DNA from: an uncultured Latescibacterota bacterium
GTDB taxonomy: Bacteria > Latescibacterota > UBA2968
Length of the DNA stretch: 64,000 nucleotides
Assembly (NCBI GenBank): GCA_951812755.1
Contig: OX638329.1
Location: 2,403,339 to 2,467,338 of the forward strand
Reading direction: 5' to 3'
Program-made: the position numbers and the translations under genes
Notes under the pieces: model-generated
Database searches by the model: none
What the model saw: the letters and a program-made list of their open reading frames with translations, nothing else
Told to the model about the DNA's origin: nothing
Shown here: positions 43,736-45,879 of the stretch, in pieces
Position numbering within the stretch: position 1 is the stretch's first letter
How the letters are laid out: the number at the start of each line of letters is the position of its first letter

Positions 43736-44317
43736 TTAAATCTGCTCGTGCTGGCGTTTGCGTTGCAATAAAATTTGCTGTCGCTGCTTCTGCGAACTAA
43801 GTATGGTATAAAGAATACTTACCCGTTTGCTTGCTGTTTGCAGTGCCTGGACATCCCGCTGGTCCTGATCCTTTAACCGGGACAAATACAGCATGCGTTG
43901 GGCTGCATCTCGTAGTGACTTTGCCGAAAATAATACCGATAGTATTCCCTGTCGTCCTATTTTGTATATCTCACGCGTACGTTGCGCTATCTTTTCCTCG
44001 CGATTTTTGAGTAGCGACTCGGCTTGCCGAAGCTGTCGCTCGGTACGGTGGATTTCATCATTCAGACTATTGATTTCATCAGCGATATTTAGAGATGTGT
44101 CCTTTGTTTTTTCACTCTCATTTTCAGGTTGAGCCGATGCTTCCTGCGGAGGTTGAGGATTCAAGTCACGCACTTTCAAGCTGTCCATCGCCGCTTGCTC
44201 AGCTTTCAAGCGCGTTTCCAACTCTGTTATTGTCTGCGCTCTTCCATCGGGTGGTAATGCGAGTAGAAAAGCTATGATATGCAATATATACACTGGTTTT
44301 TGCACACTATACCTCAA
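43736..44317 (-). CDS. EnvC-like coiled-coil protein lacking a LytM domain
   Basis: A 193-residue exported protein: signal peptide to about residue 27 (LLALPPDGRAQ), a first helix with a proline-containing linker (about 50-72), then long coiled coil (about 75-130) and a second helix to the end. The segment REIYKIGRQGILSVLFSAKSLRDAAQRMLYL near 112 is the hallmark of EnvC/murein hydrolase activators, which continue into a C-terminal M23/LytM domain. Here the frame ends at RKRQHEQI, right after the coiled coil. It lies three bases after ftsX, the usual place for EnvC. Confidence 0.8.
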   Translation of the reverse strand: MRYSVQKPVYILHIIAFLLALPPDGRAQTITELETRLKAEQAAMDSLKVRDLNPQPPQEASAQPENESEKTKDTSLNIADEINSLNDEIHRTERQLRQAESLLKNREEKIAQRTREIYKIGRQGILSVLFSAKSLRDAAQRMLYLSRLKDQDQRDVQALQTASKRVSILYTILSSQKQRQQILLQRKRQHEQI

Positions 44318-44320
44318 TGG

Positions 44321-45196
44321 TCAGGCACTGCCCTGCGCAATTTCTCTCAACATGCGGTTCAGGGATGCCCAACTGCCTATCGCGCCCAGTATGGTGCCTA
44401 ATACCACCAGACAGAATGCCAGTTCAATCGTTGGTGTAACCGTCAAATCCGGTACGCGAACAGCCCACCACGGTGATATATAAGCCAACATCAAGGGTCC
44501 CAAAAATCCACCGACAGAGCCTTGTATTGCCCCCCCAACTCCAAAGATCATCCACACAGTCGTATTTGTCGCGCCGACCAACCGCATAATCCCAATGGCA
44601 TCGCGTTGCGCCAGTACCATCAACTTGGTCGCATGGCTTACTGCAAATGCACACGCAAAACACAGCATACACCCAAGCGCGAGTCCAATTCCGGTGATTA
44701 CTTCAATAAAATGCTCTAAAGAATCCGCCCAAACTTCCCCCACATTTATACCTTCTACAGCACTATGACCGGTTACAGATCTTGCAACAGCCCGAGCGCG
44801 GCGCGGCATATTCTCACCGGGCGAAATGCGTACTCTGAGGGAAGCGGGCAATGGATTGCGCGAAAGCGCATCAACCGTCCCCAGGCCAAATATTGACCGA
44901 AATTCTCTGGCCGCCGCTTCCTGATCCACATACACAATTTCGGCTACCTCGGGCCTCGCTTCTAAGGTGCGTCGCAATGCGATTACGCGCTGAGATGAAA
45001 TGCTATCTTTTAGGTAAATGTCTATCTCCACCCGCGCGCGCAATCGGTTAAGTAGCGCATTCCCACTCTCGATCACCTGCCAAAAGAATCCCAATACCAG
45101 CAGCGATGCTCCAATAGTCGCCACTGAAATCACACCTGCGATTCCCGTACGCATCACCCCTTGCAACGCCTCGCGAAATACCAGCGACAAATTCAT
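44321..45196 (-). CDS. ftsX: Cell division protein FtsX-like
   Basis: A 291-residue membrane protein with the FtsX layout: one helix at about 18-40, a periplasmic domain (ARVEIDIYLKDSISSQRV, LSRNPLPASLRV) to about 165, then three helices. FtsX links cytoplasmic FtsE to periplasmic hydrolase activators and controls septal peptidoglycan splitting. Order ftsE-ftsX-EnvC-like is standard. The conserved coupling helix region (AQRDAIGIMRLVGAT) is present, so binding to FtsE is likely although FtsE itself is degenerate. Confidence 0.88.
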   Translation of the reverse strand: MNLSLVFREALQGVMRTGIAGVISVATIGASLLVLGFFWQVIESGNALLNRLRARVEIDIYLKDSISSQRVIALRRTLEARPEVAEIVYVDQEAAAREFRSIFGLGTVDALSRNPLPASLRVRISPGENMPRRARAVARSVTGHSAVEGINVGEVWADSLEHFIEVITGIGLALGCMLCFACAFAVSHATKLMVLAQRDAIGIMRLVGATNTTVWMIFGVGGAIQGSVGGFLGPLMLAYISPWWAVRVPDLTVTPTIELAFCLVVLGTILGAIGSWASLNRMLREIAQGSA

Positions 45197-45213: not shown

Positions 45214-45879
45214 TCAATTTGTAATCTGTTCAATGACCTCTTTTTTCAACTGCAATATTCGTCGCGGATACCGGTCCTGCAGCACTGCATCATGTGTCGC
45301 TATGACCACAGCTATTCCGCGCACATTTATTTTTTGAAAAATGGCCATCACATGCTCGGTCGCCTCGGGATCCAGATTGGCTGTTGGTTCATCTGCCAAC
45401 AAGACAATGGGATCATTCACCAGTGCCCGCGCAATTGCCACCCGCAATTGCTCATCACCCGACAGCATATCTGGATACGCATTGCGTTTGTGCAATAAAT
45501 CTACATCCGACAATATCGCCTGTGTTTTGCGCTTGATCCGACGCCGTGAAACACCTGTTACTTCAAGCGCGAAAGCCACATTTTCATAAACTGTGCGATG
45601 GTGCAACAATTTAAAGTCTCGAAACACCACACCCACTTGTCGTCGCAACCGGGGGATATCCGTTTTCCGAATCTGCCGGGAGTCGTATTCCCCCACAACT
45701 ACCATACCCGCATCGGGCAAATTCTCAAATATAATCAGTCTGAATAGCGCGCGTTTCTCCGCTTCTGTGTGTCCAGTCAGATAGACAAATTCGCCCTGAT
45801 TGATCTCTATGTTGGCATCGACCAATATCGGTTGACCCTGCTGCTCGACCCGCACGTTTTGTAATTTAATCACTGGCAT
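45214..45879 (-). CDS. ftsE: FtsE-like ABC protein with degenerate ATP-binding motifs
   Basis: A 221-residue ABC domain protein in the ftsE position. The fold is recognisable: IKLQNVRVEQQG, VGVVFRDFKLL, LSGDEQLRVAIARAL, IVLLADEPTANLDP and ATHD. But Walker A reads GHTEAEKR (residues 36-43) instead of G-x-S/T-G-A-G-K-S, the Q-loop Gln is Arg87, and the signature is LSGDEQ instead of LSGGEQ. Walker B and the H-loop His196 are intact. ATP hydrolysis would be expected to be weak or lost. The ATG at 45879 is the first in frame; a TTG at 45906 is possible. Confidence 0.85.
   Translation of the reverse strand: MPVIKLQNVRVEQQGQPILVDANIEINQGEFVYLTGHTEAEKRALFRLIIFENLPDAGMVVVGEYDSRQIRKTDIPRLRRQVGVVFRDFKLLHHRTVYENVAFALEVTGVSRRRIKRKTQAILSDVDLLHKRNAYPDMLSGDEQLRVAIARALVNDPIVLLADEPTANLDPEATEHVMAIFQKINVRGIAVVIATHDAVLQDRYPRRILQLKKEVIEQITN

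Follow-up and report, generated by a model that had tools for sequence, protein, structure and literature searches.

The closest described relative of the locus reported here is the FtsEX-EnvC-AmiA/B system of Escherichia coli, Pseudomonas aeruginosa, and Vibrio cholerae, in which FtsEX is a type VII ABC mechanotransducer. In E. coli, FtsE binds the tail of FtsZ, FtsX binds FtsA, and a loop of FtsX binds the coiled coil of EnvC, all without ATP hydrolysis; recruitment of FtsEX to FtsZ, FtsA, and EnvC is likewise independent of hydrolysis (PMC7343993). In the ATP-driven relay proposed for E. coli, the N-terminus of EnvC zips onto the restraining arm and so releases the LytM domain (PMC12505981). 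In the Gram-positive and mycobacterial FtsEX-PcsB, FtsEX-RipC, and FtsEX-CwlO systems, the partner carries its own hydrolase domain and FtsE is a working enzyme. Research on FtsEX has treated it as an ATP-driven mechanotransducer; in the laboratory, its role in building the divisome without ATP is difficult to disentangle from amidase control, and doing so required a special ftsA allele (PMC7343993).

A divergent version of this system is encoded in an uncultured Latescibacterota bacterium (G000), within a 64,000-nucleotide stretch (the window; Table 1). The locus resembles FtsEX-EnvC-AmiA/B in its orthologous FtsE, its FtsX with an extracellular domain, the gene order ftsE-ftsX-envC, and a coiled-coil partner with a signal peptide. 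FtsA and FtsZ are also present in the genus of this bacterium (g1, comprising 11 genomes including G000 among the 64 of the phylum that were searched), the latter with the C-terminal tail ...DLQYPTFLRR. Unlike the described system, the genus has no P-loop, LSGGE motif, EnvC restraining arm and LytM domain, or canonical Ami-type amidase.

Table 1. Features of the ftsE-ftsX-envC locus, in window coordinates.
Feature	Position	Strand	Description	Basis
ftsE	45214..45879	-	221 aa; FtsE orthologue, degenerate ATP site	translation, TIGR02673, synteny
Walker A, degenerate	45748..45774	-	residues 36-44, GHTEAEKRA (GPTGSGKST in canonical relatives)	
Q-loop position 87	45619..45621	-	Gln to Arg; Arg only in G000, G030, G038	
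ABC signature, degenerate	45448..45465	-	residues 139-144, LSGDEQ (canonical LSGGE[QR])	alignment with relatives
Walker B	45388..45405	-	residues 159-164, VLLADE, intact; E164 to D in G038	
H-loop His196	45292..45294	-	intact in window copy	alignment with relatives
ftsX	44321..45196	-	291 aa; PF18075 54.9 bits (cut-off 23.5), PF02687 29.2 bits (cut-off 25.5)	
envC, truncated	43736..44317	-	193-aa coiled coil with TTG start and signal peptide; restraining arm and LytM domain missing	
Pro/Ser/Glu-rich stretch of EnvC	44093..44182	-	replaces N-terminal helix of the coiled coil	
Coiled-coil tip of EnvC	43826..44023	-	residues 99-164; putative FtsX-binding stretch	homology

Judged by its sequence, the window protein is an FtsE by descent and gene order, but by its motifs not an ATPase. 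Its top NCBIfam match is TIGR02673 (FtsE; 233.3 bits, E 2e-69), with the next family at 139 bits; the curated cut-off is 264.85 bits, which the window copy does not reach. The solved structures that match it best in a PDB sequence search are FtsE chains. An AlphaFold prediction from a six-row alignment reached a pLDDT of 35.6, too poor for a fold search. The gene is paired with ftsX directly downstream, an order kept in all relatives that retain the two, and lies in a syntenic series of surA, an S4-domain gene, a methyltransferase gene, ftsE, ftsX, envC, a DHH phosphoesterase gene, and OTC. The preliminary description of this DNA had placed the gene correctly and recognized its open frame, to which the minus strand can be added. 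The start is a conserved ATG, although translation could also begin at a TTG 27 bases upstream. The gene is single-copy: although the 6.53-Mb single-contig genome G000 holds about 80 ABC ATPase domains, a search for a second, intact ftsE, as had been suggested, returned none in this genome, the next best match being a 38% identical ABC protein (C1:1819004-1819585).

The substitutions originally reported, namely GHTEAEKR at the P-loop, Arg for the Gln of the Q-loop, and LSGDEQ, are all borne out by the translation. Walker A of the window copy departs from the canonical sister genera by G39E, G41E, S43R, and T44A; Lys42, which went unmentioned before, is retained. FtsE orthologues occur in the ten further genomes of the genus (65-94% identical) and in other genera, and both Walker A and LSGGE are broken in all 11 genomes of the genus. 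Walker A takes the form GHTEAEKRA, GHTEAKKRA, GQTEAEKRA, GQTDAEKRA, or GQTSAETSA, and the second Gly of LSGGE, intact in 8/8 canonical relatives, has been altered in every member (DEQ, AYER, GYER, GDGR, GEER, or GRER). Six positions that are invariant in the eight canonical relatives are altered genus-wide (G39, G41, T44, R54, G142, and T189), four of which belong to the ATP site. Other elements vary within the genus. The Q-loop Gln is kept in eight of the 11 genomes, and Q87R lies on two separate branches. The earlier statement that Walker B and the H-loop are intact holds for the window copy and fails for the genus, where Walker B has changed in G038 and the H-loop His is gone from five of the ten readable copies (Arg in G029, G031, G035, and G036; Gly in G038), having been lost at least twice. 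Loss of canonical ATPase function in this FtsE is thus nearly certain on the strength of its motifs. The protein is very probably a pseudo-ATPase, as first proposed, given the motif loss across 11 genomes, and ATP binding has presumably been lost as well.

FtsE is canonical in all eight other FtsE-bearing genomes (G018, G019, G020, G023, and G025-G028), a set that comprises the other four genera of its own family, three genomes from a second family in the same order, and one genome from yet another family. Alignment with related genomes, proposed at the outset as a check, therefore gives broken motifs shared by the genus and canonical motifs in the sister genera. A local sequencing error or frameshift is excluded, because the loss is common to 11 concordant genomes from several separately deposited assemblies. 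In the tree, the genus is monophyletic (support 100) and its sister is G025, which has a canonical FtsE; the simplest history would therefore be a single loss of the motifs, on the stem of the genus.

FtsX keeps its extracellular domain (PF18075) and its permease domain (PF02687). The core of its coupling helix, IMRLVGA, which holds the hydrophobic positions that bind FtsE, is retained in every genome of the genus core; the interface positions were taken from published work (PMC11139282). As a separate observation, the Glu of the coupling-helix sequence AIEIMRLVGA is replaced by Gly (AIGIMRLVGA or TIGIMRLVGA) in G000, G029, G031, G035, and G036 (window:44321-45196 and loci L043-L046) and is still present in G032, G033, G034, and G037. 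In G038, ftsE and ftsX are separated by a gap of about 459 bases (L048:6550-7012), compared with about 17 bases in other members of the genus. A fusion of FtsX with EnvC in G035 and G036 was considered and rejected, each ftsX having its own TAG stop.

EnvC, by comparison, has been cut short. In the genus it measures 187-219 aa and ends after the coiled coil, whereas in the sister genera and family f2 it measures 388-411 aa and carries a C-terminal LytM (M23) domain. The only match of the window EnvC is to PF24568 (CC_PcsB; 31.7 bits against a cut-off of 27), with none to M23, and no M23 match was found at the envC locus of any member of the genus. The next gene begins 17-41 bases on (the DHH gene at 41 in the window) and overlaps envC in G038. 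Relocation of the LytM domain was rejected, since the other M23 proteins match those of the sister genera and the EnvC one alone is missing, a comparison made on counts and lengths, without a tree. Queried against PDB sequences, the truncated EnvC returned chance matches only. The match to the PcsB coiled-coil domain recalls FtsEX-PcsB, FtsEX-RipC, and FtsEX-CwlO; in contrast to the partners in those systems, the coiled coil of the genus stands alone. The N-terminal helix is affected too. It is shortened in the genus core, and where seven canonical relatives have no proline in 51 residues, nine genus-core genomes have 2-4 in 31-46 residues. The tip, in turn, varies least of all parts of the protein within the genus, with a mean pairwise difference of 0.156 against 0.447 for residues 61-98.

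The target of the pathway is also missing. Exactly eight of the 47 genomes of the class, those with a canonical FtsE, encode a canonical Amidase_3 protein (405 aa in G025). The amidase of the sister genera has no match in any of the 11 genomes of the genus, and in family f4 only three genomes gave matches, weak and partial (E about 1e-4 to 1e-5). In the genomes checked for its position, the amidase gene lies 3' of smpB, with a dnaC-like gene after it. In the genus, as in G021, G022, and G024, smpB is directly followed by the dnaC-like gene and the amidase is cleanly missing. Compensation by an Amidase_2 enzyme was rejected, as there is none in the order. A different, LysM-bearing Amidase_3 protein persists in all genomes of the genus and in the FtsEX-less relatives; in G000 it is a 484-aa protein with LysM repeats (L070:634-2088; G000:C1:1922633-1924087), which could perform cell separation without FtsEX.

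Canonical FtsE, the LytM domain of EnvC, and this one amidase thus co-occur perfectly in the class, which supports the view that the ATP cycle of FtsE is kept for amidase activation. The class shows three states: some genomes have the full machine, others a pseudo-ATPase core lacking both effector and target, and others none of it. The preliminary description had concluded that a pseudo-ATPase FtsE would imply a different control of septal splitting. The pseudo-ATPase part stands, whereas the rest is not supported as worded because the EnvC arm, the LytM domain, and the canonical Ami-type amidase are missing from the same genomes. The pseudo-ATPase accompanies the loss of the EnvC-amidase branch and is not a new way of driving it.

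It is proposed, with moderate confidence, that the FtsEX-EnvC-amidase machine has been dismantled at its motor, relay, effector, and target, and that FtsE, FtsX, and the EnvC tip have been kept as an ATP-independent scaffold for the divisome. FtsE2X2 would be held in a single nucleotide-free state, forming a static bridge. FtsE would contact FtsZ, and FtsX would contact FtsA and hold the short periplasmic coiled coil. Such a bridge may help in recruiting or assembling the divisome without triggering cleavage of the wall. The amidase and the LytM domain may have been lost first, after which the ATP cycle would no longer have been under selection, leaving the motifs to decay and the binding surfaces in place. 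The balance tips slightly towards a wider claim, that the entire genus divides with an ATP-independent FtsEX selected as a pure divisome scaffold, and that the recruiting and wall-cutting roles are separable in nature.

The nearest laboratory counterpart is E. coli FtsE D162N-X, which supports cell separation when unable to block FtsA (PMC7343993). Like this mutant, the FtsEX of the genus is predicted to be unable to hydrolyze ATP and could still recruit its partners. In contrast to it, the loss in the genus arose naturally, is fixed genus-wide, affects the P-loop and signature where the mutant is altered in Walker B, and goes along with the disappearance of effector and target. The same study also provides evidence against a scaffold, as hydrolysis-dead FtsEX blocks septal synthesis through FtsA in E. 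coli (PMC7343993). The interaction with FtsA would therefore have to differ, or be tolerated, in the genus. The E. coli mutant is probably locked in the ATP-bound state, whereas the FtsE of the genus is probably nucleotide-free. Relatives without FtsEX exist, and the scaffold therefore cannot be essential across the class.

Selection on the three genes was examined within the genus by Nei-Gojobori counts. The dN/dS ratio is 0.23-0.24 for ftsE, 0.26-0.27 for ftsX, and 0.28-0.29 for envC, compared with 0.12-0.18 for three neighboring genes. In phylogenetically independent pairs, pN/pS is 0.25, 0.27, and 0.36, respectively, and nonsynonymous changes are depleted (p = 2e-29, 5e-25, and 5e-16). At the 28 ATP-site positions, the mean pairwise difference is 0.107 in canonical relatives (0.448 elsewhere in the protein) and 0.228 in the genus (0.205 elsewhere), a shift in constraint with a site permutation p of 5e-5. 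The best-conserved stretch of FtsE in the genus is the segment that follows the Q-loop (residues 88-112; 0.099). FtsE, together with FtsX and the EnvC tip, is under purifying selection in the genus, and the special conservation of the ATP-site positions of FtsE is gone.

These values also bear on the foremost alternative, in which FtsEX-EnvC became dispensable after loss of the amidase and LytM domain and is a slowly decaying remnant on its way to complete loss, any remaining constraint being weak or serving to keep a misfolded protein harmless. The dN/dS of ftsE and envC above that of their neighbors fits such slow erosion and counts against a scaffold; the absence of former special constraint at the ATP site also speaks for erosion. 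The end point of such a process also exists, since ftsE-ftsX-envC and the amidase have been lost fully and cleanly in G021, G022, G024, and the two checked genomes of f4. Conversely, every readable copy in the 11 genomes is open and full-length, and a pN/pS of about 0.25 with the deficits given above is hard to reconcile with simple decay, which the preliminary description had already doubted on the evidence of the open frame. The FtsX-binding tip and the coupling helix are more conserved than the remainder, and the motif loss was already present in the ancestor of the genus, so the genes have outlasted many substitutions. Decay is accordingly considered unlikely, though it deserves to be kept in view.

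Retention of a functional scaffold is also preferred over a role in which FtsE binds ATP or another ligand non-canonically through Lys42, Asp163, and Glu164, with binding itself as the signal. These three residues are retained in 10/11 genomes, and T-E-A-E-K-R-A is well conserved in the genus core. Glycines 39 and 41 have nevertheless become acidic in most copies, the Mg-binding Ser/Thr at position 43 has become Arg, five genomes have lost the H-loop, and the signature motif varies freely; in G038, Lys42, Glu164, and His196 are all absent. Binding of this kind is quite improbable.

Some ABC exporters pair one degenerate with one canonical site, and in ABC proteins such as ABCG5/G8, which share broken consensus motifs with the genus, one of the two sites is canonical. 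With no second FtsE alongside it, both sites of an FtsE dimer would be degenerate here. It is very unlikely that FtsE instead joins a different, catalytic ABC ATPase on FtsX as the inactive member of a heterodimer, since, for all the exporter precedent and the many ABC domains in the genome, FtsX is homodimeric in solved FtsEX, a second FtsE-like protein is absent, and the output module is gone anyway.

A search of the open-access literature, with most subscription journals outside its scope, returned no report of a natural pseudo-ATPase FtsE. The genus appears to have made the separation that is difficult to achieve experimentally, the parts that belong to the ATP cycle being gone, and would constitute a natural test of FtsEX without ATP. 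The surfaces still conserved in the genus should mark those that matter in its absence.

The wider class offers further observations on the loss of the module. The ftsE-ftsX-envC block is absent from G021, G022, G024, G049, and G050 (loci L113, L112, L111, L114, and L115, respectively), where the methyltransferase, DHH, and OTC genes adjoin; G049 and G050 are the two genomes of family f4 that were checked. The block is cleanly missing in relatives that also have no canonical amidase, and the module has seemingly disappeared on more than one occasion. Family f4 yielded no FtsX bearing an extracellular domain. Many genomes of this FtsEX-less family (G040, G042, G045-G050, G052-G056, G058-G060, and others) encode two strong FtsA homologues. 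Families f1 and f2 hold one, and the second FtsA of f4 is possibly linked to the loss of FtsEX.
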